From positions 1,034,265-1,098,264 of the forward strand of contig NZ_JAUFQT010000002.1 of assembly GCF_030409905.1 (NCBI RefSeq): a DNA stretch of 64,000 nucleotides, given 5' to 3'. Shown here in pieces: positions 4,093 to 64,000 of the stretch. The notes beneath the pieces are model-generated. The model was given only the letters and a program-made list of their open reading frames with translations. It was not told the origin of the DNA and ran no database searches. This stretch comes from Echinicola jeungdonensis. GTDB taxonomy: Bacteria; Bacteroidota; Bacteroidia; Cytophagales; Cyclobacteriaceae. Position 1 is the stretch's first letter. Each line of letters begins with the position of its first letter. The translations under genes and the position numbers were made by a program.

Positions 4093-5789
4093 ATGATTTC
4101 AACCGAAAAAAAGTATACATCTGATGATGTCACTCCTAAGGAAAAAATAAGTTTGCTTACAGGTGATCAAGTGATTACCGCTATTCAAGACGAACATTTT
4201 TTAACCCAATGGGATGAGCTATATCAAAAATGTTCATGGAGCACAGTTTTTCAAAACCCTAATTTTGTCACCCACTGGTATCAAATTTACAGGGATGAAT
4301 TTGAACCCATTATGGTCACTTATTATAAGGGGCAAAATCTGGCCGGATTATTAACAATGGCCATAAGTTCACAAAAAGAGGGTACATCAAAGAAAAATTA
4401 CCGCGGAAAAATAATTGGGGCAGGCCATTATGAAGCAGAATATCAATCCTGGCTTTCCACCCCGGAGGAAAATGATGAATTTATTCATCAGGCTTTAACC
4501 TTGATAAACAGGGATTTTCCCAATTGCCATATATTCTTTAGGTATTTGATTCCGGAAGTTCCATTAGGTTGGATAGATACTTATCCAAAATGGAGAAAAA
4601 AAACCGTGATGCAAGCTTATAAAAGGCCCATCATGCGGATGGATGACCCTGAAATTTCTAAGTTATTCCGAAAAAAAGAATTTAGAAATAAATACAACCG
4701 CCTTAAAAGATTCGGAGACCTCTCTTTCAAGAAAATATCAGATCAAGAGGAATTTTCCCAGGTTCTCCCTATCCTAATAGAACAGTTTGAATTTAGGCAA
4801 ATGGCCATGTTTAATAAATGCCAATTTACCGATAGCCCCGAAAAATTGGAGTTTTTAATGGCCCTGTTTGAACAAGGCTTACTGCATGCCACCATTCTAA
4901 AAGTTGATGATGAAATAGTGGCCTCTATTTTAGGCTTAATGGAAAAAACTGGTACCACCTGGGTGCTATCAATACCCACTCTCCCGTTTATGGTAACCAT
5001 TCCCCTGGATTTGTTCACTTTATTCTTCTTGGAGAATTATTATCCCAAAACAGCCAAAACATATTTGACCTTACTCCCGGTGGAGATGCCTACAAGGAAC
5101 GAATGGCAACAGATCATGACCATGTCACTGAAATGTGCATTGCAGGAAGCCAACTTTTTGATAAAAAACAACGGCTAAAATATCTTTTCCATGATTACCT
5201 TATGCGATGGAAAAAAAGGCCTATGTCCATTCAGCTGGCCCTGAAAAAAAAGAAATATAATTTCAAACATAGATTGAAAAAAATCAAAAATTATGGGCTT
5301 AAGGCACTGCTATCAAAAGACCAGCCAATATTAGACAAAAAGCAGGAAACATTATATCCCGTCCAGTTACCCACCAGCATTGACCAAATAATGGTACCTG
5401 TAAAAAGAAATAAATTAGGAGATTTATTGGCATACGAGGAGGATCAATATGGAAGAAGTCCATGGGAATTTCTGGAAGATTCCATGTTAAAATATGCTGA
5501 GGAATTCCATGCTATTACCTGGGCAGAAAATGGGGTGCTTTTAGCTTGCGCATGGGTTTGTTCCGATAAAAGGTGGACAAAATTATTTGGGGTACCATTT
5601 CCAGGCAAACCCCATCCCGTGATAACGGATATTTTTTACCATCCCCAAATAAAGGACCGTTTAGGAGATTTTATTTCTGCAACTATTATTAAAGTGCTGA
5701 GCCAGAAAAAGGATCCTAAAATTTACATCTGCTCTCACCCCAAAAAAACAGGAATTCAAGAATGGGTGAGGCAGCATAAACAAGGATAA
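4093..5789 (+). pseudogene. CelD/BcsL-type GNAT acetyltransferase, frameshifted (two reading frames)
   Basis: Two overlapping frames (4093-5178 and the one ending at 5789) make up one protein of about 565 residues. The first frame matches the N-terminal half of the paralogue at 7055-8695 (WSTVFQNPNFVTHWYQIY against WATAFQQWEFISSWYQLY). It then loses similarity near 4948, and similarity resumes in the -1 frame: HLGAINTHSPVYGNHSPG against HLQGINTHSPFQAKHSPG, then FDLTPGGDAYKERM. Adding one A to the A6 run at 4943-4948 restores the frame. The Acetyltransf_6 (CelD/BcsL) fold is known from cellulose and capsule loci, where it acylates sugars or peptides. The cause could be assembly error, slippage on the A-run, or true inactivation. 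Confidence 0.85.
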
Positions 5790-5848
5790 AAAAAGGTAAC
5801 ATTTAAATGGTTTAATAATTTTAACCCTGAGATTGGAGGACTCCGACT

Positions 5849-8695: not shown

Positions 8696-8773
8696 ATTTA
8701 GCGATCTGGTCATCATTTTTTTGATGGAAAAATCACCCTATAAATTGAAACTTTTATAATTAAATCCAATTCC

Positions 8774-11325: not shown

Positions 11326-13488
11326 TTATTTGATATAATTTTCGCTTCCTTCACTAATGGTAAAAGTAAACGTTGTAGAGGTTCCAGGAACTTTTTCTCC
11401 ATTCACTTCATAATATGGAGTTACTATTAATTCATAATCTCCAGGATACAAACCATCTCCATACCAGAAATCTCCATTCCCATCATCTCCATTCAAGGCA
11501 AATGGATATTCATCATCAATACTGCTTCGATTATCCTCTCCACTAAGTTCAAACTTCACTTCAGCAGGTTGTTCAGATCCAAAATTTGGAACAATCGAAA
11601 GCCGGTGATCTTCGGCAACGATGTGGTCTCCTGAATAGAAATTACCAATAGTTCCATCAGGACTTGTATTCATCAAAGTAAGGTAATTGATGGGGGAACC
11701 TAAACTTTCAGAAGTGGTACTTTCCTCCTCTTCTACGGAGCTTGTCGTTTCTCCTGCAACATATCCTCCTTCTTCAGTAATATAATTTTCTTCTCCGGCT
11801 TCAATAGTGAAGGTATAAGTAATAGACTCCTGGGCAACTCCATTATTATATGGTGTAATCACCAATTCATAATTACCAGGATACAAACCATCTCCATACC
11901 AGAAATCTCCATTCCCATCATCTCCATTCAAGGCGAATGGAAATTCATCATCAACAGCAATCCGGTTATCTGCCCCGCTCAATTCAAATTGAACTGAGGT
12001 AGGTCGATTTGTTCCAAATTCTGGAACTATGGATAAACGGTGATCTTTGGCAATGATTAGAGCACCTGAATTAAAATTATCCACAGGCTCATCATAGCTG
12101 GTATTGATCAATGTAAGGTAATTGATTGGGAATTCTGTTTCATAAGGTGATAAAGTACTTTCTTCTTCCTCAATTACAGGGCTAGTGCTTTCTTCTTCTT
12201 CAATTACAGGGCTAGTGGTTTCACCGGTAACATATACCCCTTCTTCAGTAATAATATTATCCTCACCTTCTTCAATAGTGAAAGTATAAGTAAGGGGTTC
12301 TCGGGCAACTTCATCATCATATGGAGTAATCACCAACTTATAATCACCGGGATACAAACCGTCTCCATACCAGAAATTTCCATTTCCATCATCCCCATTC
12401 AAAGCAAATGGAAATTCATCATCCACTAAAGTTCTGTTATCTGTCCCACTCAATTCAAACCGAACTGAAGAAGGTTGGTCTGCACCAAATTCTGGAACAA
12501 TTGATAACCGGTGGTTTTTAGCTGTGATCAAAGCTCCGGTTCCAAATTGCCCAATAGGCTCATCAGAACTGGTATTAATCAAGGTAAGGCCTACTCCTTC
12601 AGTTGATGTTGTACTATCATCCACATCATTTTCCAGTACAGGTTCTTCCTCTAAATCTGAACTAGAACTGACTCCTCCCAGGGTAGACATTTCTTCAAAT
12701 GAGGCATTTTCATCTCCCATGCGGACATTGTCAAAATACATAACCCTAAGGTCAGTATCAGTGGTCTCATCGTAATTCCAGTCATCTTTGTAGATACCAA
12801 TTTTCCATCTTGGAAGGTCATAGTCTTTGTTCAAATTGCCCCCATTGATATTTAGCATTTTTTCTCCATTCATCCAGAGTTCTACCAAACCATCACTGTC
12901 ACCGGAGTGGATAATATGGATTACAAATTCATTCCAAGTGTCCTTTTGAACTGCTGCAATATCATAATCCTTCCTTTCTTCCTTGGTTGGTCCACTTTTC
13001 AGGAAGAATCTATCATCTTCTACACGCAATGTGGTTGTGGGACTACCGGATCCGCTTCCCTGGTGCCACTGGTTTATGATATCATTGTTACTATCTTTTT
13101 TAAATCCATCAGATGGCAAATAAAGGCTAAAAGAGTACCATCTTTCATTGTGGTCCTGATCTGGGAACAACACTTCTGACCTGGTTCCACTGGAAGCCAT
13201 TTCATCATCATCCCTTAATTCAAACCTACCGGAATAAGCTCCTTCAAATACCGGATCCTGAGACCTTCCAAAAGAGTAATCTTCCGAATATTGGTGATGG
13301 GCAAAGGAAAGTGGGTCACTATCCTCGAAAGTTTCAAAATAAATTAAATTGGCAGAACTTGTTGCCTTATAAATTTCTTCGCTCTCTAGATTTGATTCTT
13401 CTAATCCCGAAACATCACATGCAGACATACCTACTCCTATAAGGGAAGCAGCCATGATGTATCTTAGGTTGGTGTTAAGAAAATTCAT
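11326..13488 (-). CDS. Lipoprotein with PF14099-type polysaccharide lyase domain and three C-terminal beta-domain repeats
   Basis: A 720-residue lipoprotein. I start at 13488 because it gives a compact signal peptide with lipobox GMSAC and lipid cysteine at residue 24; an in-frame GTG at 13530 would add 14 residues. Residues ~35-265 look like the PF14099 fold (heparin lyase I/glucuronan lyase family): GTRSEVLFP, ERWYSFSLYLPSDG, IINQWHQG, then DLPRWKIGIYKDDWN and YFDNVRMG. Three copies of a ~120-residue domain follow, each with HRLSIVP, FALNGDDGNG and WYGDGLYPG, resembling domains beside malectin or T9SS modules in Bacteroidota. It should sit on the outer membrane and cut or bind an acidic polysaccharide. 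Unlike three paralogues it lacks the basic tail. Confidence 0.82.
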   Translation of the reverse strand: MNFLNTNLRYIMAASLIGVGMSACDVSGLEESNLESEEIYKATSSANLIYFETFEDSDPLSFAHHQYSEDYSFGRSQDPVFEGAYSGRFELRDDDEMASSGTRSEVLFPDQDHNERWYSFSLYLPSDGFKKDSNNDIINQWHQGSGSGSPTTTLRVEDDRFFLKSGPTKEERKDYDIAAVQKDTWNEFVIHIIHSGDSDGLVELWMNGEKMLNINGGNLNKDYDLPRWKIGIYKDDWNYDETTDTDLRVMYFDNVRMGDENASFEEMSTLGGVSSSSDLEEEPVLENDVDDSTTSTEGVGLTLINTSSDEPIGQFGTGALITAKNHRLSIVPEFGADQPSSVRFELSGTDNRTLVDDEFPFALNGDDGNGNFWYGDGLYPGDYKLVITPYDDEVAREPLTYTFTIEEGEDNIITEEGVYVTGETTSPVIEEEESTSPVIEEEESTLSPYETEFPINYLTLINTSYDEPVDNFNSGALIIAKDHRLSIVPEFGTNRPTSVQFELSGADNRIAVDDEFPFALNGDDGNGDFWYGDGLYPGNYELVITPYNNGVAQESITYTFTIEAGEENYITEEGGYVAGETTSSVEEEESTTSESLGSPINYLTLMNTSPDGTIGNFYSGDHIVAEDHRLSIVPNFGSEQPAEVKFELSGEDNRSSIDDEYPFALNGDDGNGDFWYGDGLYPGDYELIVTPYYEVNGEKVPGTSTTFTFTISEGSENYIK

Positions 13489-13750
13489 TAATTGTATCTT
13501 TATATTTTTCTGTTTTAATTGAGATATCACCTTAAAGAAGGCAATGCAAACAGTACTCTTATCAAGTACTTTTCACTTCATCTTTTCTATTATTTATTTT
13601 TTTCGTGCCCTTTGGCTTCACCTTTTATTTTTTTACCAGAATTACCTGCCTCAAAAACTTCTACTGAGGTGGATTCACCATCAGTGCTGTCTGTGGTGGT
13701 ATCGTCATCAGTACTATTATTAGTGGTACTGTCATCAGGGCTGTCTGTGG
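13440..13750. repeat. Direct repeat, mate at about 15071-15381 (offset 1631 bp)
   Basis: The 5' end of one lyase-like gene, the short intergenic space and the 3' end of the next gene are nearly identical to the block 1631 bp to the right; I count two mismatches in the first roughly 150 bp after 13531. The homology continues into the coding domains on both sides. It is the scar of tandem duplication or gene conversion and offers a substrate for copy-number change. Confidence 0.85.
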
Positions 13751-15119
13751 TAGAACCATCATCAGTGGTACTGTCTGTGGTAGAACCATCATCAGTGGTG
13801 CTATCTGTAGAGGAACTGTCGTCAGTGATTTCTTCTTCCTCAATTACGGTGCTTGTTGTTTCTTCTGTAACATATACACCTTCCTCAGTTATAATATTTT
13901 CATCCCCTTCCTCAATTGTAAAAGTATAGGTAAGAGAAGCCCGGGCCACTCCATCCTCATAAGGGGTTATTACCAATTCATAATCACCTGGGTATAATCC
14001 TTCCCCATACCAGAAGTCACCATTTCCATCATCCCCGTTTAAGGCAAATGGATATTCATCATCTTCTGAAGTTCTATTATCCTGCCCACTCAATTCAAAT
14101 TGAACAGATGAAGGTTGATCTGCACCAAATTCAGGGACTATGGATAGACGGTGGCTTTTAGCAGTGATCAACGCTCCGGTGCCAAACTGGCCAATAGGCT
14201 CATCAGAACTGGTATTAATCAGGGTAAGCCCTACTCCTTCGGTTGGAGTTGTACTATCATCACTTTCGGTTACAGGCTCTTCTTCTATATCTGAGCTAGT
14301 GCTGGTTCCCCCTGAAGTCATATCTTCGAATGAAGCGTTTTCATCACCCATACGGACATTATCGAAATACATAATTCTTAGGTCTGTATCGGTAGTTTCA
14401 TCGTAATTCCAGTCATCTTTGTAGATACCAATTTTCCATCTTGGAAGATCATAGTCTTTGTTCAAGTTTCCGCCCTTGACGTTAAGCACTTGTTCGCCGT
14501 TTAACCATACCTCTACCAACCCATCACTGTCACCAGAGTGGATAATATGGAAAACAAATTCATTCCAAGTATCTTTTTGAACTGCTGCAATGTCATAATC
14601 CACTCTTTCTTCTTTCGTAGGTCCACTTTTAAGGAAAAAGCGATCATCTTCTATTCTCAAGGTTGTTGTGGGACTTCCTGATCCACCCCCTTGGTGCCAC
14701 TGGTTAATGATATCATTGTCGCTATCTTTTTTATATCCATCAGAAGGCAAATAAAGGCTAAAGGAATACCACCTTTCATTATGATCTTGTTCAGGGAACA
14801 GCACTTCTGACCTGGTCCCATTTGAGGCCATTTCATCATCATCCCTTAATTCAAACCTACCGGAATAAGCTCCTTCAAATACTGGGTCTTGGGCTCTTCC
14901 AAAGGAGTAGTCTTCCGAATATTGGTGATGGGCAAAGGAAAGCGGGTCACTATCCTCGAAGTTTTCAAAATAAATTAAATTGGCAGAACTTGTTGCCTTA
15001 TAAATTTCTTCGCTCTCTAGATTTGATTCTTCTAATCCCGAAATATCACATGCAGACATACCTACTCCTATAAGGGAAGCAGCCATGATATTTCTTAGGT
15101 TGGTGTTAAGAAAATTCAT
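13590..15119 (-). CDS. Lipoprotein with PF14099-type polysaccharide lyase domain, one beta-domain and a basic tail
   Basis: This 509-residue paralogue of the 11326-13488 product has almost the same signal peptide (lipobox GMSAC) and lyase-like domain (GTRSEVLFP, INQWHQG, PRWKIGIYKDDWN). It has one copy of the HRLSIVP...WYGEGLYPG domain. A low-complexity linker follows with decapeptide-like units (STTDDGSTTD), and the protein ends in the tail VFEAGNSGKKIKGEAKG plus HEKNK. The start at 15119 is chosen for the signal peptide; a GTG at 15161 is in frame. Flanking DNA is nearly identical to the next copy, so this is a recent duplicate. Whether it is an active lyase or a binding protein cannot be told. 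Confidence 0.82.
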   Translation of the reverse strand: MNFLNTNLRNIMAASLIGVGMSACDISGLEESNLESEEIYKATSSANLIYFENFEDSDPLSFAHHQYSEDYSFGRAQDPVFEGAYSGRFELRDDDEMASNGTRSEVLFPEQDHNERWYSFSLYLPSDGYKKDSDNDIINQWHQGGGSGSPTTTLRIEDDRFFLKSGPTKEERVDYDIAAVQKDTWNEFVFHIIHSGDSDGLVEVWLNGEQVLNVKGGNLNKDYDLPRWKIGIYKDDWNYDETTDTDLRIMYFDNVRMGDENASFEDMTSGGTSTSSDIEEEPVTESDDSTTPTEGVGLTLINTSSDEPIGQFGTGALITAKSHRLSIVPEFGADQPSSVQFELSGQDNRTSEDDEYPFALNGDDGNGDFWYGEGLYPGDYELVITPYEDGVARASLTYTFTIEEGDENIITEEGVYVTEETTSTVIEEEEITDDSSSTDSTTDDGSTTDSTTDDGSTTDSPDDSTTNNSTDDDTTTDSTDGESTSVEVFEAGNSGKKIKGEAKGHEKNK

Positions 15120-15220
15120 TAATTGTATCTTTATATTTTTCTGTTTTAATTGAGATATCACCTTAAAGAAGGCAAAGCAAACAGTACTCTTATCAAGTAC
15201 TTTTCACTTCATCTTTTCTA

Positions 15221-16246
15221 TTATTTATTTTTTTCGTGCCCTTTGGCTTCACCTTTGATTTTTTTACCAGAATTACCTGCCTCAAAAACTTCTACTGAGG
15301 TGGATTCACCATCAGTGCTGGCTGTGGTGGTATCGTCATCAGTACTATTAGTAGTGGTACTGTCATCAGGGCTGGCTGTGGTCGTACTGTCTGTTGTGGA
15401 ATCAGTATCGGTGGTTTCATCTGAATTTGTAGCTCCAATTGAGGTCATTTCTTCAAAAGTGGCATTTTCATCTCCCATCCGTACATTGTCAAAATAAAGG
15501 ATTCTCAGATCGGTATCTGTTGTTTCATCATAGTTCCAATCATCTTTATATATCCCTACTTTCCATCTTGGAAGATCAAAATCCTTATCCATATTGCCTC
15601 CATAGAGAGTCAACACTTTTTCGCCATTCATCCAGATCTCTACCAATCCATCATCTCCGGAAGAATGCACAATATGAAACACAAATTCATTCCATGTATC
15701 CCTTTCTACCGCGGCAATATCATAATACTCCCTATTGTCTTGATGATCGCCGCTTTCCAATTGAAACCGACCATCCTCAATTCTAAAGGTGGTTGTGGGG
15801 CTACCTGATCCACTTCCTTGATGCCATTGGCTAATAATGTCATAATTACTATCAAATTCATAACCTTCCGTAGGCAGGTATAGAGAATAAGAATACCATC
15901 TTTCATTGTGGTCTTGTTCAGGGAACAACACTTCCGAGCGCGTTCCATTGGAGGCCATTTCATCATCTTCTCTTAATTCAAAGCGACCAGAATAGTCTCC
16001 TTCAAGCACGTGGTCTTGGGATCTTCCAAAAGAGTAATCTTCTGAATATTGGAGGTGGGCAAAGGAAAATGGATCACTTTCCTCGAAGTTTTCCAAAAAA
16101 ATTAAATTGGCCGAACTAGTTGCCTTATATATTTCTTCCCTTTCTAGATTTGATTCTTCTAATCCCGAAACATCACATGCCGAAATGACTACACCTAAAA
16201 GGAAGGCGGTTATTATGTTTCTTAGGTTGGTCATAAGGATATTCAT
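15221..16246 (-). CDS. Lipoprotein with PF14099-type polysaccharide lyase domain and basic tail (short form)
   Basis: This 341-residue member of the family has signal peptide MNILMTNLRNIITAFLLG with lipobox VISAC and the lyase-like domain at about residues 40-265. It differs from its siblings around residues 155-175 (DGRFQLESGDHQDNREYYD replaces FFLKSGPTKEER), a region that could shape substrate choice. No beta-domain repeat is present. A 45-residue Asp/Ser/Thr linker leads directly to VEVFEAGNSGKKIKGEAKG and the terminal HEKNK. It is in the same minus-strand array, 59 bp from the next gene's GTG, and probably co-transcribed. Confidence 0.82.
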   Translation of the reverse strand: MNILMTNLRNIITAFLLGVVISACDVSGLEESNLEREEIYKATSSANLIFLENFEESDPFSFAHLQYSEDYSFGRSQDHVLEGDYSGRFELREDDEMASNGTRSEVLFPEQDHNERWYSYSLYLPTEGYEFDSNYDIISQWHQGSGSGSPTTTFRIEDGRFQLESGDHQDNREYYDIAAVERDTWNEFVFHIVHSSGDDGLVEIWMNGEKVLTLYGGNMDKDFDLPRWKVGIYKDDWNYDETTDTDLRILYFDNVRMGDENATFEEMTSIGATNSDETTDTDSTTDSTTTASPDDSTTTNSTDDDTTTASTDGESTSVEVFEAGNSGKKIKGEAKGHEKNK

Positions 16247-16338
16247 GAATTCTCTCCTAAATGTTCCACATTGAATATTTATAGGTTAGAAAAAGTAAAC
16301 AGCACCCTCAAAGGGAACTGTTTACTTCATTCTTTCAA

Positions 16339-17463: not shown

Positions 17464-17757
17464 TGAAAGTTTTAGTTTATTAATTTATTTATCGGTTGAG
17501 TTTGGTTTTATTTTATTATTAATACTATTTAATTTTTTATATTCTGTTTTTTTAATATTATTCAAGTATTTTTTTGATACTATTGACACATAAAATCCCC
17601 ATAATGCTCCATTTTTTGGACATTTCTATTTCACTACACTACTTTATGACGATTAATCGGAGGTGATTATATTTTCCGCATTTCCAGTTTTAAAAATCAA
17701 TTTTTTGATCTTTATCTATCTTCAAAAACCTCCTTTGACTTTATATAATTATACTGC

Positions 17758-37230: not shown

Positions 37231-37234
37231 TGAC

Positions 37235-39405: not shown

Positions 39406-39420
39406 GGATAATAAGAAGTA

Positions 39421-50013: not shown

Positions 50014-50100
50014 AAAAAGAAAGGCGAGTTGCCCCGCCTTGAATGTTTTCACAACGGAATAATCCTTATTGTGAATTGCTTTCAGAATTATGATTTCAAT
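50013..50100 (-). ncRNA. tracrRNA of the type II-C CRISPR-Cas system
   Basis: Plus-strand bases 50069-50091 are identical over 23 nt to the crRNA-sense CRISPR repeat, from its second base, so the minus-strand transcript carries the anti-repeat ATAATTCTGAAAGCAATTC plus ACAA. Downstream on the minus strand the tail reads AATAAGGATTATTCCGTTG and ends in the hairpin AAGGCG...CGCCTT (50021-50040) followed by TCTTTTT. Ends are estimated: the 3' end by the terminator, the 5' end by the anti-repeat. It lies between the HIRAN gene and cas9, opposite to the cas genes. Confidence 0.9.
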
Positions 50101-50161
50101 TTAGGAATGAATTTTAAAAAGGCAATAAAAAAGTTAAATAAAGAATAAATTAAATTATAAT

Positions 50162-53100
50162 ATGAAAAGAATATTAGGACTGGATTTGGGAACAAACTCT
50201 ATTGGGTGGGCTTTGGTTGCGCAAAACTTTGAGGAAAAGCAAGGTGAAATACTTGGAATGGGAAGTAGGATTATTCCGATGAGTCAGGATATTTTAGGAG
50301 AATTTGGAAAAGGAAATTCAGTTTCCCAAACGGCTGAAAGAACAGGTTTCAGAGGAACCCGAAGACTCCGCGAGAGACATTTACTCCGTAGGGAAAGGCT
50401 ACATCGTATTTTGAATATTTTGGGATTTCTCCCTAAGCATTACTCTTCACAAATAGATTTCGAGAATCGCCTTGGCAAGTTCAAGAGGGAAATGGAGCCC
50501 AAACTGGCTTTTAATAATAAAGAATTCATCTTCAAAAAATCATTTGAGGAGATGCTTGTTGATTTCAAGAAGTGTCAACCACAGTTATTAGAAGAAGGAA
50601 AACTAATCCCTTATGACTGGACAATCTATTTCCTACGAAAAAAAGCACTTTCTCAGAAAATTGAAAAAGAGGAGCTCGCTTGGGTCATCCTAAATTTTAA
50701 TCAAAAGCGGGGGTACTATCAGTTTAGAGGAGAAGAGGAGGAAGAAAATCCTAATAAATTGGTCGAGTTTTATTCATTGAAAATTATCGATATAAAAGCT
50801 GAAGAAACTAATAAAAAGGGAGAGACTTGGTATTCACTGATTCTCGAAAATGGATGGGTTTATAGACGTTCAAGTAAAACAGATTTATACGATTGGAAAG
50901 ATAAAGTCAGGGATTTCATTGTTACTACTGACCTGGATGAGGATGGCTCAATTAAAAGGGATAAAGAGGGAAATGAAAAAAGGAGCTTTAGAGCCCCAAA
51001 GGAAGATGATTGGACACTAATCAAAAAGAAAACCGAACAGGAAATTGACCATTCTAGTAAAACGGTAGGTGCATATATCTACGACACACTATTACAAAAC
51101 CCAAGTCAAAAAGTAAAGGGCAAATTAGTCCGTACTATTGAACGTAAATTCTACAAAGAAGAATTAAAGGCTATTCTGGAAAAACAAAAGGCATTTCATC
51201 CTGAATTAACGGATGAAGGTTTGTACAACGAATGTGTGAGAGAACTATACAGAAACAATGATGCACACCAATGGGCATTAAGCAAAAAGGATTTTACACA
51301 CCTTTTCCTTGAGGATATCATTTTTTACCAACGGCCTCTAAAAAGCCAAAAATTTAATATAGGAAAATGCTCGTTAGAGTACAGAAATTTCAGGATTAAC
51401 GGAGAAAGGAAAACCAAATACCTGAATGCTGTCCCCAAATCCAATCCTTATTATCAAGAATTCAGGGTTTGGCAATGGATGTATAACCTTAAGATCTACA
51501 AAAAGGAGGATGAAGTTGATGTAACTGGCCAGTTTCTATCCAACATTGAAGATTGGGAAAATCTTTTTGAGTTTTTGATGAGGCAAAAAGAGGTAGACCA
51601 TAAGATTATATTGAAACATTTGCTTACCTCTAAAGAACTGAAGGGAAAAGCGTTAAATGCAGAAACTGCAAAGTACCGATGGAATTACGTGTATGATTCT
51701 GTAAAGGATGAATCAAAAAATATCCCTGTAATGAAACTGGTTATGAAATCAGGAGAAGATTAAAAAAAGTCGAAAATATGTCTTTTGATTTCTTCACAAG
51801 AGAAATTGAGTACAATTTGTGGCATATTATCTACTCAGTCACAGATAAAATAGAATATGAAAAAGCCCTGAAAACCTTTGCTGAAAAACACCGATTGGAT
51901 GTCAATTCCTTTGTGGAAAATTTCAAAAAGTTCCCCCCGTTTAAAAGCGAGTACGGCCCTTTTTCTCTAAAAGCCATTAAAAAATTATTACCCTTATTAC
52001 GTTTAGGAAAATATTGGAGTTGGGATGCTATTGATGAAAAAACAAAAAGCAGGATTGATAAAGTCACAACTGGTGAATTTGATGAAAAGATCAAAAATAG
52101 GGTTAGGGAGAAAGCAATTAATTTAACCGAGTACCATCATTTTCAAGGCTTACAGCTTTGGTTAGCAAGCTATATTGTTTATGATAGACATTCCGAAGCT
52201 GATATTAGTAAAAAATGGAATTCGGTTGTTGATTTGGATGGTTATATCAAAGATTTCAAGCAGCACTCACTGCGTAACCCCATTGTAGAGCAAGTAGTAA
52301 CCGAAACCCTCAGGGTAGTAAGGGATATTTGGCAAGAATACGGCGAAGGGAAGAAAGATTTCTTTGATGAAATCCATGTGGAATTGGGGCGGGAAATGAA
52401 AAATCCTGCAGATAAGCGCAAACAAATAACTAACCAAATTACGGATAATGAAAACACCAATCTTCGTATAAAAGCTTTACTAACTGAACTCAAGAATGAT
52501 ACAGGTTTTGAGAATGTTCGTCCATATTCACCAATGCAGCAGGAAATTCTTAAAATTTATGAAAATGGAGTGCTCAATTCCAATATTGAAATTCCAGAGG
52601 ATATAGAAAAGATCAGCAAAAAGGCCATCCCTACTTCTTCGGAATTATTGCGCTATAAGCTTTGGCTTGAACAAAAATATCGTTCCCCGTATACAGGTGA
52701 AATCATTCCATTTACAAAGCTTTTTACTTCTGAATATGAAATCGAACACATTATTCCACAAAGCCGATACTTTGATGACAGTTTCAGCAATAAAGTAATA
52801 TGTGAAGCTTCCGTGAACAAATTAAAAGACAATCAAATAGGTTTAGAATTTATAAAAAACCATCACGGAGAAATAGTAGAAAATGGTTTTGGCAAGAGCG
52901 TAAAAATATTTGAGGTCAGGACATATGAAACTTTTGTAAAAGACCATTACTCCAAATCCTTTTCAAAGCGGAACAAATTGCTCATGGAGGAAATTCCGGA
53001 GAAGATGATCGAGCGCCAAATAAATGACACTCGTTACATAAGCAAGTATATTTCAGCAGTCCTATCCAATATAGTCCGTTCAGAAACTAATGATGAAGGC

Positions 53101-54758
53101 ATCAATTCCAAAAATCTTATTCCAGGTAACGGAAAAATCACTGCTACCCTTAAACAGGATTGGGGGTTGAATGATATTTGGAATGGGATAATCTTAACCC
53201 GCTTCGAACGGATGAATCAGCTTACCAATTCAAAAGGTTTTACAAGCTGGAACAAAAATCATCAAAAATACTTACCCACCGTGCCTCTTGAGTTGTCAAA
53301 AGGTTTCCAAAAAAAGAGAATTGACCACAGACACCATGCTTTAGATGCTTTGGTTATAGCTTGTGCAACACGTGATCACGTCAACCTTTTAAATAACCAA
53401 TATGCAAAATCTAAGGAACGCTTTGATCTAAATAGGAAACTAAGAAAATATGTAAAAGTCGCTTACTCCCACCCAAAAACCAAAGATAGAATTGAAAGAG
53501 AGGTGCCAAAAGATTTCCAAAAACCCTGGGAAACTTTTACAATTGATTCCAGAAACGCTTTAGAAACCATAGTAATAAGTTTCAAGCAAAACCTTAGGGT
53601 GATAAATAAAGCTACTAATAAATATGAAAAATGGATTAAAAAAAACGGCCAAAAGTCCAAAGAAATAGTGGAACAAAAAGGACTTAACTGGGCTATTAGG
53701 AAGCCAATACATAAAGACACTGTCTCTGGACTAATTAAGCTTCGAAAAAAGAAGAAAGTTTCTCTTGGAGTTGCATTGGACAATATTTCGGATATCGTCA
53801 ATAAGCCGTTGAGAAAGGAAGTTCAATCCTTAGCAAGATTGAAATATGATAAAAATCTTTTGACCAAGTATTTTAAGGACAGAAAATACAAGTGGAAAAC
53901 TCAAGATATTTCTAGAGTAGAAATTTATTATTGGGAAAATGACTTAGTAGCAACACGTACAAGCTTAGATACTTCATTCAATGAAAAACGGATTAAAGGA
54001 TCAATTACAGATACCGGAATCCAAAAAATTCTACTGGCCCATTTAGAAAAATATAAAAACAGGGTTGATGAAAAAGGCAAATCTATGGCACCAGAACAGT
54101 TGGCCTTCACCCCAGAAGGAGTTGATGAGATGAACAAAAATATCATTCAACTCAATGGGGGAAATTTCACAAGCCCATATTAAAGGTAAGAACTTATGAA
54201 CCAAAAGGGAACAAATTTAAAGTAGGAGAAACGGGGAATAAGAGGAAGAAATATGTGGAAGCTGCCAAAGGCACCAACCTATTTTTTGCCATATATCAAA
54301 ATGGTGAGGGGAAGCGAAGCTATGATACCATCCCTTTGAATATTGTGATAGAAAGGCAAAAACAGGGGCTGACTTCTGTCCCAGAGATTAACGAAAAAGA
54401 AGAAAAATTACTGTTTTATTTATCTCCAAATGATTTGGTGTATGTGCCAAATGAGGATGAAAACATTGACACCATTGACTTTAATAATCTAACCAAGGAA
54501 CAAACAGAAAGGATATACAAAATGGTGAGTTCTTCAGGAAATCAATGTTTTTTCCTTAGACAAGACGTATCTACCGCCATTGTAAATAAAGTTGAATATT
54601 CAGCGCTTAATAAAATGGAAAGAAGTGTAAATGGTGTGATGATAAAAGAATTTTGTTCTAAGCTTAATACAGATAGACTTGGAAATATCAAAAGTGTCCA
54701 TAACAAATCAGGAATAATAAAAATAGGAAACCACGAGTATGAAAATAAAGAAGTTTAA
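50162..54758 (+). pseudogene. cas9: Cas9 (type II-C), interrupted by two single-base losses
   Basis: Three frames (50162-51763, 51778-54183 and the one ending at 54758) form one Cas9 of 1532 residues once two -1 shifts are made, near 51730 (PV|NETGYEIRRRLKKVEN) and 54177 (TSP|ILKVRTYEPKGNKF). All nuclease residues are present: RuvC-I ILGLDLGTNSIGWAL (Asp8), arginine-rich bridge helix GFRGTRRLRERHLLRRE, RuvC-II IHVELGREM (about Glu741), HNH YEIEHIIPQSRYFDDSFSNK (about His863 and Asn886), RuvC-III HRHHALDALVIAC (about His1059 and Asp1062). It is an RNA-guided DNA endonuclease using the adjacent tracrRNA and array. As sequenced no full-length protein is made; assembly error or true decay are the alternatives. 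Confidence 0.93.
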
Positions 54759-54871
54759 TGGAGAGCTTAAAAACAGGAAACTAGATAATTCATTCACCAA
54801 CAAATCCAAAAAGGGATTTCCAAACACTTACAAAGACACCTTAAGGCATATTCTCATTCTAGAAAATATCA

Positions 54872-54904
54872 AAACCTGTCAGGTCTCCCAGACCTGACAG
54901 GTTT
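54872..54904. repeat. Perfect 15-bp REP hairpin upstream of the RAYT gene
   Basis: AAACCTGTCAGGTCT and AGACCTGACAGGTTT flank a CCC loop. It sits 25 bp before the RAYT start and 114 bp after the cas9 stop. This type of palindrome is the usual substrate-like element near REP-associated tyrosine transposases. Confidence 0.88.
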
Positions 54905-54928
54905 GAATATGCACAAACCACCAATCTT

Positions 54929-55534
54929 ATGGAACAAGGCCAATCCTACCATATTTACAAACACGCCAACCTGCCCGTCCGGCAAGCGAGTGGCTCGGAG
55001 GATATTTTCCGGGAGGAGGAAAATTATCGTTTTTTTCTCCAACAGTATAGCAAATACTTAGGGAATGTAGTGGACACCTATGCTTTTTGCTTGATGCCCA
55101 ATCATTTTCATTTTTTGGTTGGGGTAAAGTCTGAGGAAGCCTTGAAGAAAACTTTTCCAAAGTTTGAAACTTTGGGAAAGTTAATCTCCAAGCAATTTTC
55201 AAACTTTTTCAGTTCTTATGCCCAAACTTTCAACAAAAAGTATAAACGAAAAGGAAGTTTGTTTATCAATAACTTCAGGAGAAAACCAATCCAAACAACA
55301 TCCCAATGGCAGGAAATCTTCCTGTATTTCCATCTCAACCCAATAAAACACGAGTTTGCCACATCGGTAAACGATTGGAAATGGTCAGGCTGGCATGCTT
55401 ATAAATATTTAGAAAAGAAGTCTCTATTAGAGCGTACCTATTTTATGAACTTCTTTGATGGAATATTTCATATCAATGATATGATGGAGGTAAAAAGGGA
55501 GATATTATTAAATAAGAACCTGGAAATAGAGTAA
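54929..55534 (+). CDS. REP-associated tyrosine transposase (RAYT, Y1/IS200-like)
   Basis: This 201-residue Y1_Tnp-superfamily protein has an N-terminal YHIYKHAN, the HUH motif in FCLMPNHFHFLVGV (two metal-binding histidines), and the C-terminal block KRKGSLFINNFRRKPIQ with LYFHLNPIKH. Relative to the usual family start, seven residues (LPVRQAS, 54971-54991, GC-rich) look like an in-frame insertion before GSEDIFREEENY. RAYTs nick and rejoin REP hairpins and are often single-copy, domesticated proteins. It lies between cas9 and cas1 on the same strand, only 17 bp before cas1, so it may be read with the cas operon. Confidence 0.9.
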   Translation: MEQGQSYHIYKHANLPVRQASGSEDIFREEENYRFFLQQYSKYLGNVVDTYAFCLMPNHFHFLVGVKSEEALKKTFPKFETLGKLISKQFSNFFSSYAQTFNKKYKRKGSLFINNFRRKPIQTTSQWQEIFLYFHLNPIKHEFATSVNDWKWSGWHAYKYLEKKSLLERTYFMNFFDGIFHINDMMEVKREILLNKNLEIE

Positions 55535-55551
55535 GTAATAAACTTATAAAA

Positions 55552-56784
<1,233 letters not shown>

Positions 56785-56900
56785 TCATTTGAAAAATGAA
56801 ATTGGCCTACTATCCTTTTTAACAACCCAAAAACAGCTTGATTTTTTATTTCTAAATATCAACTTAAACAACAGCATACCAACCACTTACATGGAGGTAT
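56785..56900. promoter_or_regulatory. Cas2-proximal flank of the CRISPR array (leader candidate)
   Basis: This AT-rich stretch between cas2 and the first repeat lies opposite to the degenerate end, so it is the likely site of spacer insertion. It includes a 10-bp inverted repeat, ACAGCATACC (56871-56880) and GGTATGCTGT (56896-56905), whose right arm runs 5 bp into the first repeat. Confidence 0.6.
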
Positions 56901-59039
56901 GCTGTGATTACCTAGCTAAGGTATAATTCTGAAAGCAATTCACAACGGCAGATAGGGAGTTTGCTAATCGGAGGGGGCTGTGATTACCTAGCTAAGGTAT
57001 AATTCTGAAAGCAATTCACAACGTACATGATGAAGCCTCCTCAAATCCCACAGCTGTGATTACCTAGCTAAGGTATAATTCTGAAAGCAATTCACAACCG
57101 CTTTTGTTGTTTTTTCGCGGCTCCTCTGGCTGTGATTACCTAGCTAAGGTATAATTCTGAAAGCAATTCACAACAGGTGCTCCAAGTGCAGGTAATTTCA
57201 GGTGCTGTGATTACCTAGCTAAGGTATAATTCTGAAAGCAATTCACAACTCCCTCAAATATCCCCCGCTCAAATGATTCGCTGTGATTACCTAGCTAAGG
57301 TATAATTCTGAAAGCAATTCACAACGCATTAACATTCTGAGCCTGATTTTGTAACGCTGTGATTACCTAGCTAAGGTATAATTCTGAAAGCAATTCACAA
57401 CACAGTTTCCAAAATGTTAGGACATAAAGACGCTGTGATTACCTAGCTAAGGTATAATTCTGAAAGCAATTCACAACGATGACCTTTAAATTCATATTGC
57501 ACCCCTTGCTGTGATTACCTAGCTAAGGTATAATTCTGAAAGCAATTCACAACATTTCCTGCATAGGGATAATTTAGGGGTGGGCTGTGATTACCTAGCT
57601 AAGGTATAATTCTGAAAGCAATTCACAACATTGTCTTTGTTGGCCTGTGCCACCATAGGCTGTGATTACCTAGCTAAGGTATAATTCTGAAAGCAATTCA
57701 CAACGAAATGTTGGTAACTATAAAAGCGCCCTTTGCTGTGATTACCTAGCTAAGGTATAATTCTGAAAGCAATTCACAACAAATCCTCCTCTGCATGATT
57801 GAGCCTATTTGCTGTGATTACCTAGCTAAGGTATAATTCTGAAAGCAATTCACAACATAATAGGAGAGCCGGAACACTACAGGCCAGCTGTGATTACCTA
57901 GCTAAGGTATAATTCTGAAAGCAATTCACAACCCTCTTGCCTACCATGGGCACAAAAAGGAGGCTGTGATTACCTAGCTAAGGTATAATTCTGAAAGCAA
58001 TTCACAACTGCATTGTTCTATTTTCATTTTCGCCTAAGGCTGTGATTACCTAGCTAAGGTATAATTCTGAAAGCAATTCACAACTGATTACCTGGAGGAA
58101 GTTGAATATTTCCAGCTGTGATTACCTAGCTAAGGTATAATTCTGAAAGCAATTCACAACGGAAATTAAAGGATTAATAAACAGAAGAAAGCTGTGATTA
58201 CCTAGCTAAGGTATAATTCTGAAAGCAATTCACAACTACAGGTTTCTATCAGTTCCTATGCAAAAACGCTGTGATTACCTAGCTAAGGTATAATTCTGAA
58301 AGCAATTCACAACGTAGGAGGCTCGAAGCAGTTTTCATATACAGCTGTGATTACCTAGCTAAGGTATAATTCTGAAAGCAATTCACAACACATAATCTGG
58401 CTTTCCTTCAATATCAAAAGCTGTGATTACCTAGCTAAGGTATAATTCTGAAAGCAATTCACAACCACAATAGCGGTGGCATTCATTACACTTGTGCTGT
58501 GATTACCTAGCTAAGGTATAATTCTGAAAGCAATTCACAACGGTCAAGGTATTGAAGAGCTTCGAAGGCATGCTGTGATTACCTAGCTAAGGTATAATTC
58601 TGAAAGCAATTCACAACGTTACTGATCCGGTAAATTCAGTATCAAATGCTGTGATTACCTAGCTAAGGTATAATTCTGAAAGCAATTCACAACGGAAGAA
58701 TAACTCATGACAATGTTGAAAGGCTGTGATTACCTAGCTAAGGTATAATTCTGAAAGCAATTCACAACCGTGTGGTTCAGGTGTAATTAATGCTATTAGC
58801 TGTGATTACCTAGCTAAGGTATAATTCTGAAAGCAATTCACAACAAGTTGGCTAATAATAAATTTTATGGCATAGCTGTGATTACCTAGCTAAGGTATAA
58901 TTCTGAAAGCAATTCACAACAATGCTCTGTTCTATTTCCAAAATTACTCTGCTGTGATTACCTAGCTAAGGTATAATTCTGAAAGCAATTCACAACAGCA
59001 TTTCCAGTTTAAACAGCAGTTTTTTTGCTGTGATTACCT
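56901..59039 (-). CRISPR. Type II-C CRISPR array: 28 repeats of 46 bp, 28 spacers, plus a degenerate terminal repeat
   Basis: Repeats begin GCTGTGATTACCTAGCTAAG on the plus strand and end AAAGCAATTCACAAC; all 28 appear identical. Spacers are 30 bp, except 29 bp after repeats 4, 10 and 24 and 31 bp after repeat 18. The last unit (59027-59039) keeps only 13 matching bases. The tracrRNA anti-repeat shows that crRNAs come from the minus strand, where the repeat begins GTTGTGAATTGCTTTCAG, the usual form in Bacteroidota II-C systems, so the array is antisense to cas9-cas1-cas2. The half not paired to tracrRNA contains a small palindrome (TACCT...AGGTA). No two spacers look alike. Confidence 0.97.
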
Positions 59040-59136
59040 TACTAGGGAGGATCTCCCTGGCATCTTCCCCTAATGATTTCACCTATAATTTTTTTCGTTA
59101 TTTTAAAAAAACGCATAATGAATATTTTATTTTTAA

Positions 59137-60196
59137 AATTAAAATTATGTATATCCGCAATGACACCAGTAGCCAAATAAATTAAAAGTGACAGTTAGTG
59201 TCAATAGCTTTAGTTAAGTTATTACTCTGTATAAATTGGGTCAAAATAAACGGTTTTGACCATGAATATAATCAACTTCATTAATCGGTTTCCTGACGAG
59301 TCTTCCTGTATTAAGTTCATTAGAGAACAAAGGACAAAATCGGGCATCATTTGCAAACGGTGCAGCTGTAACCGTCATTATTGGCTTGAAAACAAGAAGT
59401 CCTTTCAATGTGCTTCATGTGGGTTCAGGACCAGCATCAAGAGTGGTACTGTTATGGAAAACAGCAACCTTCCAATTAGGACCTGGCTGCTGGCCATGAC
59501 CTTCATAACCGCCACTAAGAAGAGCTTCAGTGCCTCAGAGCTACAAAGGCAGCTTGGGATGAAGCGGTATGAACCTGTTTTCAGGATGTACCATAAACTC
59601 AGGAAGGTCATGGGACAACGCGATGATATCTATAGGCTTGAGGATATGGTAGAATATGATGAGGCCTTTGTAGGAAAAGCCACCAAAGCCAAATCCCAAA
59701 ACAAGCTCAAAAGAGGCAGGGGCAGTCAAAAACAGTCCATTGTAGCGGTAATGGCCGAATCGACAGTTTTAGAAAACCCTGAATCCGGAAAGCTTGAAAA
59801 GAGCTGTAGATATTTTAAAATGAAGAAGATAAAGAACTTAGAGGCAAAAACAGCCCAAGGTCTGGTCAAAGAATTCATTGATCAGGACTCAGTGCTTCAA
59901 ACAGATAAGAGTACCACCTTCTCAGATCTGGGTGACTGTATTGAGGTTCATGTCAGAGAGGTCTCTGGAACTGATAAAGGCCATTTTAACCTCAAATGGG
60001 TTCATATAGCCATAAGTAATTTAAAGAAACAGCTGCAGACATACCATATGATAAGTGAAAGGATGATGCAAAACTATCTTGATGAGTTTAGTTATAAGCT
60101 CAACAGAAAATATTTCGGTCAAAAACTTTTTGACCGGCTCATTATTGCTTCCATTTATCCTTACTGGCATGATTGCGGATAATCATAATTAAAATT
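59137..60196 (+). mobile_element. IS1595-type insertion sequence
   Basis: The transposase gene is flanked by 25-bp imperfect inverted repeats (59137-59161 and 60172-60196; 21 of 25 positions match, ending ATCCGCAAT towards the inside). The right repeat overlaps the transposase stop codon. No clear target-site duplication was seen next to these ends, so the true outer boundary may differ by some bases. It sits about 100 bp from the degenerate end of the CRISPR array. Confidence 0.68.
59256..60182 (+). CDS. IS1595 family transposase (ISXO2-like)
   Basis: This 308-residue protein has an N-terminal zinc ribbon (ICKRCSCNRHYW and FQCASCGFRTS; four cysteines) and an ISXO2-like DDE domain. The latter carries MVEYDEAFVGK (first Asp), VLQTDKSTTFSDL (second Asp), GHFNLKWVHIAISNLKKQL (third position as Asn) and FSYKLNRKYF. 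It is full length with no disruption, so the element may be active. A start at 59262 (MNIINFINRFP) is also possible. Confidence 0.9.
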   Translation: MTMNIINFINRFPDESSCIKFIREQRTKSGIICKRCSCNRHYWLENKKSFQCASCGFRTSIKSGTVMENSNLPIRTWLLAMTFITATKKSFSASELQRQLGMKRYEPVFRMYHKLRKVMGQRDDIYRLEDMVEYDEAFVGKATKAKSQNKLKRGRGSQKQSIVAVMAESTVLENPESGKLEKSCRYFKMKKIKNLEAKTAQGLVKEFIDQDSVLQTDKSTTFSDLGDCIEVHVREVSGTDKGHFNLKWVHIAISNLKKQLQTYHMISERMMQNYLDEFSYKLNRKYFGQKLFDRLIIASIYPYWHDCG

Positions 60197-60205
60197 AATT
60201 TATTC

Positions 60206-60227
60206 TTTACTTTTTCTAAAAAGTAAA
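60206..60227. terminator. A/T hairpin after the IS1595 element
   Basis: TTTACTTTTT and AAAAAGTAAA form a perfect 10-bp inverted repeat with a 2-base gap, 10 bp outside the right IS end. It is wholly A/T in the middle, so it would be a weak terminator. Confidence 0.35.
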
Positions 60228-60412
60228 ATTTAATTTTTCTAACTTTCTATTAGTTAATTGTGGTTTATTATGCTTTGGAATATTTGATTAGGCCTTATAC
60301 CCATAAAGTTTAAGAAATGGATCAAAAACTCATTAAAAAAGACCATAGCCAAAAAAGTATTGGATGTAAATCTTAATCTGAAATATTAGTATTAATCCAA
60401 CCATAAGTCAAA

Positions 60413-61195
60413 ATGGAAAATATTATTGCCTTTTTGATCGGGGTGGGCATTGCATTTATGCGATACTTTGTAGTTGCAGGAGTATCCTTTTTGATTTTTT
60501 ATAAGTTTTATTTTTATAAATATTTTAAAGCAAAAATTCAGAAAAGATTGGCCAATGGCAAGGATTTTAAAAGGGAGATTTTTCATTCCCTTGTTTCTAA
60601 TATCATATTTGTTCTTGCAGCAATAATCATTATCCGCGGTCCTTGGGTGGAGTACACCAAAATTTACAGGGATATTACGGCTTATCCCTTATGGTGGATG
60701 CCTATTAGCTTGATTTTATCCTTATTTATCCATGACACTTACTTTTATTGGTTACATAGGATATACCATCTTCCCTTATTTTTTAAAACCATACATTGGG
60801 TTCATCATAAATCCATTTCCCCTACCCCTTGGGCTTCTTACTCTTTTCATTTTTGGGAAGCATTTACTTTGGTTTTCTTTATTCCAATTCTCGTTTTATC
60901 GGTCCCAATTCACCCATTAATGTTTTTGACTTTTAATTTTTGTACATTTACCATAAACGTTTACGGGCATTTGGGATTTGAAATCATGCCCAAGTGGTTT
61001 AGGAACTCCTGGTTATTTGAAGTAATAAATAGTTCTGTTTACCATAATCTTCATCATTCAAATTTTAAAGGGAATTATGGACTATATTTTAGAATTTGGG
61101 ATAGATTGATGGGGACAGAACATTCGGATTATGTAAAAATTTACGATAGCATTCAAAAAAGAAGATTTGGTGAAAAAATAAAAATGGCCCATTAG
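60413..61195 (+). CDS. Sterol desaturase / fatty acid hydroxylase family membrane protein
   Basis: This 260-residue integral membrane di-iron enzyme of the FA_hydroxylase superfamily has three to four hydrophobic helices in the first 150 residues. The histidine clusters are HDTYFYWLHRIYH, HWVHHKS, and YHNLHHSNFKGNYG, with a further His in YGHLGFEIMP. Bacterial members hydroxylate or desaturate lipids, hopanoids, carotenoids or ornithine lipids. The substrate cannot be named; proximity to a sulfotransferase and a peptide synthetase hints at a modified lipid or lipopeptide. Confidence 0.9.
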   Translation: MENIIAFLIGVGIAFMRYFVVAGVSFLIFYKFYFYKYFKAKIQKRLANGKDFKREIFHSLVSNIIFVLAAIIIIRGPWVEYTKIYRDITAYPLWWMPISLILSLFIHDTYFYWLHRIYHLPLFFKTIHWVHHKSISPTPWASYSFHFWEAFTLVFFIPILVLSVPIHPLMFLTFNFCTFTINVYGHLGFEIMPKWFRNSWLFEVINSSVYHNLHHSNFKGNYGLYFRIWDRLMGTEHSDYVKIYDSIQKRRFGEKIKMAH

Positions 61196-61352
61196 TTTTA
61201 CCCAAAAAAAAGTTAACCTTGGGCAGGTCTTTATTTTTTTAATTGAATTAAAATTATCAAAATTTAATAAATGTATTCCCTGGAGAAATATTGAGGAAAA
61301 ACTTTAACTTTTTTTCAAAATGCTATATGTATTAAGATAAAACAGCCAGCTC

Positions 61353-62447
61353 ATGCACCGTTTTTTTCCACTTCCTTTATTTTCTTTTTACAAGATGGTC
61401 AGAAAAAATGGTGGTATTGACCCTTCAAAGCTTAAAAACACCCCTCCATGGCTGTTAAAGATCATATTATTTGAACCTATCAGGTGGATCGAGCTAGCCT
61501 TATATGATCAAAAAATCAGTCAACATCAAATTGAAAAGTCTCCCCTTTTTATCCTTGGTTATTATCGCAGTGGAACTTCTTATCTACACCAGTGCTTGGT
61601 GCAGGACAACCGTTTTGGTTATCATAGTAATTATCAAATGGTACTACCTGAAATAATGTTAAGTACAGAAAAAAAATTACTACCAATTTTTGAGCTTATT
61701 TGTCGGATTTTTAAACTAAAAGATTCCGTGCACAGGGTACCCTTATCTTTTCGCTTTCCCGGTGAAGAGGATGCCACAATGACCACTTATTTAGATGAAA
61801 AAGGGGCCCAATGGGGTTACTTCTTCCCTGGGATGATGAATGAACAGTTTAGTAAATATGTGCTTTTCGAGAATATTACAAAATCCGAATTAGAAGCTTG
61901 GAAGGATTCGTTTGTTTATCTGCTCAAAAAAATTTCCATAGCGAATCATCAAAAACAACTTGTACTCAAAAGTCCACCCAATACAGCTAGAATAAAATTT
62001 TTGCTTTCCATTTTTCCCAAAGCTAAATTTATTTTCATTCATCGTAATCCCTATGAGGTATACGCTTCCAATAAGTGTTTTTGGAAAGTAGTTCAAAAAG
62101 TTTACGCTTTACAAAACAGCAATAAGGTCAATGTCAATAAAATAATTTTGGACACCTATTCTCAAATGATGTCACGGTATTTGGAGACAAAAGATTTAAT
62201 TCCACCAGGGCAATTGACCGAACTCGCCTATATTGATTTCATAAAAAATCCACTGGAAACCCTTCAAAAAACATATCAAACTCTCCACCTTCCAGATTTC
62301 GATTATTGTAAAGATAAGTTAAAATCATTTATTGGACCACAGAAGGATTTTGTGCAACTAAAACATACAATAGCTAAAAATGAAAGGGAAATTGTTACTG
62401 AAAAACTGGAACCTTTTCTCCGCTATTGGAATTATCCCATATTGTAA
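61353..62447 (+). CDS. Sulfotransferase family protein
   Basis: This 364-residue cytosolic protein has the 5'-phosphosulfate-binding loop LFILGYYRSGTSYLHQ near residue 70 and the 3'-phosphate motif PKAKFIFIHRNPYEVYASN near residue 230. It would transfer sulfate from PAPS to a hydroxyl, such as a lipid or glycan. The arrangement matches Sulfotransfer_3-like proteins of bacteria. Its 3' end overlaps the convergent synthetase gene by 16 bp. With the hydroxylase upstream, which could make the acceptor hydroxyl, a two-step lipid modification is plausible. Confidence 0.88.
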   Translation: MHRFFPLPLFSFYKMVRKNGGIDPSKLKNTPPWLLKIILFEPIRWIELALYDQKISQHQIEKSPLFILGYYRSGTSYLHQCLVQDNRFGYHSNYQMVLPEIMLSTEKKLLPIFELICRIFKLKDSVHRVPLSFRFPGEEDATMTTYLDEKGAQWGYFFPGMMNEQFSKYVLFENITKSELEAWKDSFVYLLKKISIANHQKQLVLKSPPNTARIKFLLSIFPKAKFIFIHRNPYEVYASNKCFWKVVQKVYALQNSNKVNVNKIILDTYSQMMSRYLETKDLIPPGQLTELAYIDFIKNPLETLQKTYQTLHLPDFDYCKDKLKSFIGPQKDFVQLKHTIAKNEREIVTEKLEPFLRYWNYPIL

Positions 62448-64000
62448 TTTTCCCCTTTTAGGTAAGTTGCCAATTCATGGATGGTTTGATATTCAAAGAT
62501 ATCTTCTACTTTTATTTTTAATCCATACATATTTGCATTGGCCACCATTTGGAGACTCTGCAATGATGCTCCACCAAGGTCAAAAAAATTCTCATTCACT
62601 CCCACCTGTTCAATATTTAATATGTTTTGCCAAATTTCCACCAAAATTTGCTCCTCTTCACACCTTGGCCCTATATAACCAGAAAGTAGCCTTACATCTT
62701 CTGGTACTGGAAAAGCCTTCCGGTTAATCTTTCCATTTGGAGTTAAAGGAAATGAGTTCATTGGAATAAGGAAGTTGGGAATCATATAATTAGGAAGTCT
62801 TTCACCCAAAAACTCTTTCAATTCTCCCAAATCAAGAGGTTTATCAAAGGCTTTAGGGACAAAATAAGTGACTAATCGTTTTTCGCCAGATTTTTCTTGC
62901 CTGGCAAGGGTAATGGCATCTTTTACTATTGGGTGTTGAACCATTAGAGCAGAAATTTCCCCTAACTCCATTCGATTTCCCTGAATTTTAACTTGGTCAT
63001 CTTTTCTGTCCAAAATTTCAATAGAACCATCAGCCAAATACCTTGCTAGATCACCAGTTTTGTACAATTTAGCCCCTTTCTGGAGGGAGAAAGGGTCAGG
63101 TATAAATTTCTTTTCTGTCAATTGGGGCATATTTACATATCCACGGGCTATTCCTTCCCCTCCAATATGAAGCTCCCCTACTACATTTACCGGCAATTGC
63201 TGTTGGTACCGGTCTAGAATATAAAGCTGCGTATTGTCAATAGGCTGACCAATGGTAATCCGTGTATCTCCTTTTTTTATTAAACTTATAGAGGACCAAA
63301 TAGTCGTTTCAGTGGGCCCATACATATTCCACAATTTCCCCACCCTTTCCAAAAGATTATTTGCCAGTTGAAGTGACAAAACATCACCACCACATAAGGC
63401 TTTTAAGTTTGGCCTACCTTTCCATTCTGTCTCGAGAAGCAATTGCCAAATTGCAGGGGTGGCCTGCATAATACTTACCTTAAATTTATCTATTGATTCA
63501 CAAAGCTCCTGGGGTTGTGAGAGCAGCTCATCACTGGCAATAATAATGGTTGCTCCTACCATCAAAGGCAAAAATAGCTCCAAAGCAGCAATATCAAAAG
63601 AAAGGGAAGTAATTGCTAACAGGATATCATTCTGACAAATCCCAGGGCTTTTACTCATCGAACAAAGAAAATTTGTCAAAGAAGCATGACTAATCATTAC
63701 CCCTTTTGGAGTACCTGTTGATCCGGAGGTATAGATAATATAAGCAAGTTGCTCTGGGTCAATTTTAATGTTGGGGTTTGAAAACTCCCCATTTTAAACT
63801 TTGAATTTTCTGTTAAGCGGATTATTGATAACTCAAAATTATCCAAAATTTTGGTCTCAATATTCGTCAACAAAACACCTACCTGTGCGTCCTTTAGAAT
63901 AAACTCAACCCGGCGTATTGGGATGGAGGCATGTACAGGAACATATGCTGCACCAGTCTTACTAACTGCCAAAAGAGCTACCAGCATTTCTATTGACCTT
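62432..64000 (-). pseudogene. Nonribosomal peptide synthetase, 3' end (adenylation domain plus carrier), frameshifted
   Basis: The gene is open at the right edge. Two frames join near 63792-63795: the upstream one reads SIEMLVALLAVSKTGAAYVPV and ends out of frame, the downstream one reads FSNPNIKIDPEQLAYIIYTSGST plus GTPKG (A3). One base missing from the T4 run (A-run on the coding strand) explains the shift. Further A-domain motifs: FDIAALELFLPLMVGA (A4), NMYGPTETTIWSS (A5), LYKTGDLARY (A7), NGKINRKAFP (A10). A carrier domain follows with its phosphopantetheine serine in NFFDLGGASLQSL. No thioesterase or reductase follows, so release is by another route. The amino-acid specificity was not derived. 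Confidence 0.85.

Follow-up and report, generated by a model that had tools for sequence, protein, structure and literature searches.

Does the clustered regularly interspaced short palindromic repeat (CRISPR)-Cas locus of Echinicola jeungdonensis, whose cas9 and cas1 genes are each interrupted by shifts of frame, record a defense system in decay or errors in its assembled sequence? We addressed this question in a stretch of 64,000 nucleotides (here called the window; contig C2, positions 1,034,265 to 1,098,264 of the forward strand), which forms the right-hand end of the 1.098-Mb contig C2 in a draft assembly of 13 contigs and 4.53 Mb in total. An earlier note, made from the letters of the window, had described five single-base losses in the same direction, three of them in the cas operon, and had weighed unpolished long-read assembly against decay without selection. 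We read all five as residual consensus errors, each having lost one base from a short homopolymer, with a probability of about 95%.

Five frame breaks in the window

To locate the breaks, we aligned 144 open reading frames (ORFs) of relatives to the whole window with tblastn, without using the sites reported before. The queries came from three genomes (G001, G008, and G011) and from the cas loci of Cognataquiflexum (L007) and Algoriphagus (L061 and L008). The search returned 25 frame changes, 22 of which were assigned to five places (positions 4935-4950, 51697-51715, 54159-54177, 55776-55794, and 63742-63793 of the window), and at each of the five the shift corresponds to one missing base. The other three rows were set aside: two stem from a query ORF that matched the CRISPR array (58.5-58.9 kb), and one is a weak match to the distant Cas9 of G008 (29 to 32% identity) that would move the first cas9 break some 100 bp farther downstream. 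A sixth break did not appear in this search, in which matches above 50 bits covered 44.4 of the 64 kb, so that a break in a gene lacking relatives of this kind could have escaped notice.

The five minus-one losses were thus recovered independently, and each can be placed at a short run: A6 at 4943-4948, A6 at 51715-51720, G5 at 54157-54161, CC at 55774-55775, and T4 at 63792-63795. The first cas9 break was placed at its A6 with the help of relatives that carry a loop like EKDESKKYPCNETGYEI (L070, with close forms in L016 and L029). The outermost two of these positions are those given in the earlier note, while the middle three move by about 10, 16 to 20, and 4 to 5 bases, respectively, from 51730, 54177, and the GG at 55779-55780.

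The breaks interrupt four genes. The first lies in a GNAT-like acetyltransferase gene on the plus strand, now in pieces at 4093-5178 and 5103-5789, and orthologues from G001 (561 amino acids [aa]) and G008 (573 aa), 51 to 59% identical, change frame at 4935-4950. Two breaks divide the plus-strand cas9 (50162-54758; Cas9-BH, HNH_4, and RuvC_III domains) into ORFs at 50162-51763, 51778-54183, and 54255-54758; the Cas9 ORFs of four relatives (1,497 to 1,569 aa) extend across all three pieces. The fourth divides cas1 (55552-56444, plus strand) into ORFs at 55552-55857 and 55755-56444, both of which match the Cas1_II profile. The fifth, a T4 as written on the plus strand, falls in a minus-strand synthetase gene (62432-64000; ORFs 62432-63697 and 63697-63999, with Pfam AMP-binding and PP-binding domains) that runs off the end of the contig.

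Three versions of one locus

The other large contig, C1, contains the same locus twice. Its first 36,063 bp are their own reverse complement at 99.48%, a palindrome at the contig start with two arms of about 18 kb and no spacer. Both arms match the last 16.66 kb of the window (47342-64000, plus strand) at 99.8%, so that the cas operon, the array, and the end of the synthetase gene exist in three versions that differ mainly by single-base insertions and deletions (indels): the window itself, version A (C1:1380-18016, minus strand), and version B (C1:18016-34673, plus strand). In addition, C1 overlaps C2 at each of its two ends, the pattern that a single circular chromosome would give. The best explanation is that the fold-back at the start of C1 and the right end of C2 are a single chromosomal locus written three times, each time with its own errors. 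A fold-back at this point would have caused 16.66 kb of one locus to be reconstructed three times, with separate errors in each.

An alignment of the three versions contained 58 variant groups, in which the odd one out was the window in 3, A in 26, and B in 29 (one of these being an alignment edge). The three differences private to the window coincide with the breaks at 54157, 55774, and 63792, where the run is longer by one base in A as well as in B (G6, CCC, and T5, respectively). The chance that three random places would each lie no more than 25 bp from one of the four break sites in this stretch is about 2e-6. At the fourth site, the first cas9 break at 51715, only B has the longer run (A7), and the window and A share A6. 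A longer run was therefore found in at least one other version at all four duplicated breaks, and in both others at three of them, which supports the reading of the breaks as assembly errors. Because other versions read differently at four of the five sites, the breaks are almost certainly errors and not a sign of decay of the CRISPR-Cas system.

The direction of the private differences varied among versions. All three in the window are deletions, in runs of 3 to 6, as are 26 of 28 private columns in A; B showed no deletion bias (13 of 36, alongside 15 insertions and 8 substitutions, with the first eight columns excluded). The last private difference of B lies at 54046, and since none follows, B is the best version at 54157, 55774, and 63792. 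Private errors of B are numerous across 47.3-54.05 kb, and there we did not take it by itself as the correct sequence. In B, the synthetase frame is open for 1,083 aa, versus 453 aa in the window, and cas1 is a single ORF of 297 aa. Version A also has the longer runs at these sites, although private errors split it at other places, including within cas1.

Contig ends, palindromes, and alternative explanations

If the breaks are errors of reconstruction, they would not be confined to cas genes. We searched stretches of C1 and C2 with 645 ORFs of relatives, taking as interiors C2:500-600k, C2:834-1034k, window 1-51 kb, and C1:1500-1700k. Across the 251 kb covered in the interiors, 7 clear minus-one breaks were counted, or about 1 per 36 kb; no break was seen in C1:36-80k (16.6 kb covered), and adding that stretch gives about 1 per 38 kb. 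A reverse control, in which the assembly's own ORFs were searched against G008, yielded one weak event in 277 kb. Several rows were left out of the counts: C1:1535104 (27/24% identity), the reverse-control event (36/29%), a row near C1_end 11240 / C2 20540 that is common to all three versions there (27/39%), and shift-class-1 rows at C2:4568-4610 and C2:568449, each of which spans two minus-one breaks already counted. Further minus-one breaks outside the window are at C2:1033716, C2:856556, C2:568.4k, C2:568.55k, C1:1565849, and C1:1577415; the first of these is 548 bp to the left of the window, in a gene whose tail enters it.

Breaks were much denser at the ends of C2. Its two 13-kb ends together had 9 breaks in 10.45 kb covered and the C2 interior 5 in 143.4 kb (binomial, 4e-8), a comparison in which the 13-kb cut was chosen post hoc, the five left-end breaks sit in two genes, and rows from the C1 end were left out. 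The right end alone also differed from the C2 interior (binomial, 5e-4). The synthetase break, which fails the strict identity filter of this test, was included on account of its duplicates. At the left end, C2:1-30844 overlaps C1:3177836-3208690, beyond which C1 folds back on itself. Among the columns that differ in this overlap, 17 are short in C2 (all within its first 8.2 kb), 6 are short in C1, and 3 are substitutions. None of the five frame breaks at the left end of C2, which lie in genes unrelated to cas, recurs where C1 overlaps C2. The fold-back arm at the C1 end has two breaks that are not in the other versions.

Because the window is the end of C2 and breaks are dense at both C2 ends, the clustering of breaks in cas genes, from which the earlier note had drawn its alternative of decay, is best attributed to the contig end. 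Error density is highest in about the last 8 to 12 kb of C2, probably because few reads support the contig ends or because these were poorly polished. What was found is what consensus errors leave behind: losses of one base at runs, versions that disagree, and the same errors in unrelated genes, denser at ends. The bacterium itself most likely carries unbroken cas9, cas1, synthetase, and acetyltransferase genes.

Several points weigh against this conclusion. The acetyltransferase break at 4943 is outside the triplicated part and has no second version; we infer that it shares the origin of the others. The right end of C2 alone cannot separate cas genes from contig end, as cas genes make up 6.4 of the 8.0 kb covered there. 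No version contains a whole cas9, and private indels leave A and B more fragmented there than the window is. The versions compared are contig sequences that may share reads, in which case they are not fully independent. Finally, the short run at 51715 is present in two of three versions, and B is error-rich around it, with several private insertions, such that its A7 could be luck. At 51715, the duplicates do no more than lean toward error. With the short run in two of the three versions, they are compatible, at this site alone, with a real and switchable A6/A7 that would leave part of the population with an off-state Cas9, although we consider this very unlikely.

Decay of the whole locus in the absence of selection, with real frameshifts in cas9 and cas1, would account for three of the five breaks falling in cas genes within 4.1 kb and for the short run that the window and A share at 51715. 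It is nonetheless highly improbable. Two of the three cas breaks are missing from both other versions and the third from B, like breaks interrupt genes with no relation to cas, some in contig interiors but most notably at the left end of C2, and every break is a loss of one base at a run, which decay does not require. Moreover, the array and the anti-repeat are intact and cas2 is unbroken.

Real heterogeneity, such as phase variation at slippage-prone runs with each version a true allele, would fit the fact that the versions do differ at these runs, but it would have to extend to 58 groups spread over many genes and intergenic sequence, in runs down to 2 to 3 bases, with 26 and 29 groups private to A and B. 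Phase variation is typically associated with long tracts, and there are none at the five sites. The density of differences tracks contig ends and fold centers instead, and the idea that they are alleles is hardly credible.

Palindromes were widespread in the assembly: in 8 of the 11 small contigs (C4, C5, C6, C7, C8, C9, C12, and C13), most of the length is taken up by a spacerless palindrome, or by two in C6, and both ends of C1 are palindromic as well. Three of these contigs (C9, C12, and C13) repeat C1 at about 47665-55310. That all three versions really exist in the genome (two in an inverted duplication of 18 kb and a third besides, with decay in some) agrees with their match at 99.8% but deserves next to no weight, given that the arms lack a spacer and begin at the contig start, that one arm continues where C2 stops, that the opposite C1-C2 join shows the same fold-back, that most small contigs are palindromic, and that bacteria are not known to maintain long palindromes stably when these lack a spacer.

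The palindromes are instead probably fold-back artifacts of missed adapters or amplification. Palindromic reads that arise from whole-genome amplification and missed SMRTbell adapters, and that harm assembly, are described in an excerpt of PMC6218980; the likeness lies in inverted duplications by which an assembly is both interrupted and repeated, whereas our palindromes are known from contigs alone. Likewise, an excerpt of PMC12007338 reports that gene-fragmenting errors of long-read assemblies include deletions in homopolymers that are two to eight bases long. The breaks in the window resemble these in being single-base run deletions after which a gene reads as neighboring ORFs whose frames differ; they differ in having been shown without reads, from redundant contig ends, and in being concentrated near those ends. 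An unpolished long-read assembly is the probable source of the five consensus errors. This reading guards against a false claim of CRISPR-Cas decay. It also offers a test that needs no reads, in which overlapping or folded contig ends of one draft serve as replicate reconstructions, and implies that genes less than about 10 kb from the contig ends of this draft should not be called pseudogenes.

The cas operon and its transposase-like gene

Apart from the breaks, the system looks intact in sequence, and nothing in it calls for decay. The parts of a type II-C system are present: a Cas9 with RuvC and HNH domains, cas1, cas2, an array, and an anti-repeat. The unbroken cas2 (56362-56784, plus strand) matches Cas2_II at 1.7e-48. 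Upstream of cas9, a candidate anti-repeat of the trans-activating CRISPR RNA (50069-50091) is complementary to part of the CRISPR repeat at 23 of 23 bases. The array (56901-58996, plus strand) consists of 28 exact 46-bp repeats and 27 distinct spacers of 29 to 31 bp, with no variants among the three versions. Its last repeat (at about 59028) is truncated, as is usual at the far end of an array. Roughly 200 bp beyond it is an ORF of 308 aa (59256-60182) that looks transposase-like by eye. Neither a csn2 nor a cas4 family was found among the eight ORFs scanned at 49.5-56.8 kb.

According to an excerpt of PMC10309648, Flavobacterium psychrophilum has cas9-cas1-cas2 followed by the array, with an anti-repeat located upstream of cas9 and repeats of 46 bp. 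The window has this layout and repeat length in common with that type II-C system of the Bacteroidota but differs in that a gene resembling the tyrosine transposases associated with repetitive extragenic palindromes (REPs) stands between cas9 and cas1 (54929-55534, plus strand, unbroken). This gene matches NCBIfam REP_Tyr_transpos at 2.2e-16, below the model's curated cutoff, and Pfam Y1_Tnp at 0.012, also below the cutoff. In the sister species G008 (locus L109), Cas1 is 75% and the transposase-like protein 76% identical to that of the window, while Cas9 is only about 26 to 32% identical, which suggests from the sequences that cas9 may have been exchanged within a kept operon.

We surveyed 77 cas9 loci (1.18 Mb) with a profile built from the first matches. 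Among the 61 type II-C-like loci that show both cas9 and cas1, the transposase-like gene was in the gap between the two in 12 (L008, L015, L021, L025, L026, L031, L044, L061, L062, L063, L072, and L109, of which L025 and L026 are one genome). It was not found outside this gap in the remaining sequence of the 77 loci; a thirteenth locus with the gene, L023, has no cas1 on its contig. Across 11 genomes of the genus, close copies were restricted to E. jeungdonensis and G008, in both cases in the cas9-cas1 gap, and G009 has a distant relative (E, 6e-9). The gene is possibly kept by the cas operon.

A REP-like palindrome lies inside the transposase-like ORF (55150-55182) and a second one just upstream of it (54872-54904). 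Palindromes within the ORF, with arms of 14 to 19 bases, were present in 13 of 14 cas-linked ORFs of the family (window counted), versus an arm above 11 bases in 1 of 37 comparison ORFs of similar length from the same loci. Relatives of the gene elsewhere also had one in 2 of 7 cases. In-frame REP insertions inside such genes have been described for subclass 2.4 of TnpA-REP in an excerpt of PMC6006769, and the main text of that paper does not use the term CRISPR. Among the literature matches listed, none linked the transposase-like gene to type II-C operons. One ORF (L021:6712-7236) has a palindrome with 51-base arms, perhaps another assembly fold-back.

Elsewhere, a plasmid search with the ORF at 44.5-47.0 kb gave no match, and an Rfam scan returned no family at gathering score. 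Past the end of C2, the synthetase gene continues on C1 (33104-36346) and is followed by a large ORF on the same strand (36327-39995); the two amount to 1,080 and 1,222 aa in the stretch read and are perhaps a multi-enzyme synthetase cluster. In the left part of the window, 12184-18279 contains several adjacent paralogous stretches that are 77 to 90% identical.

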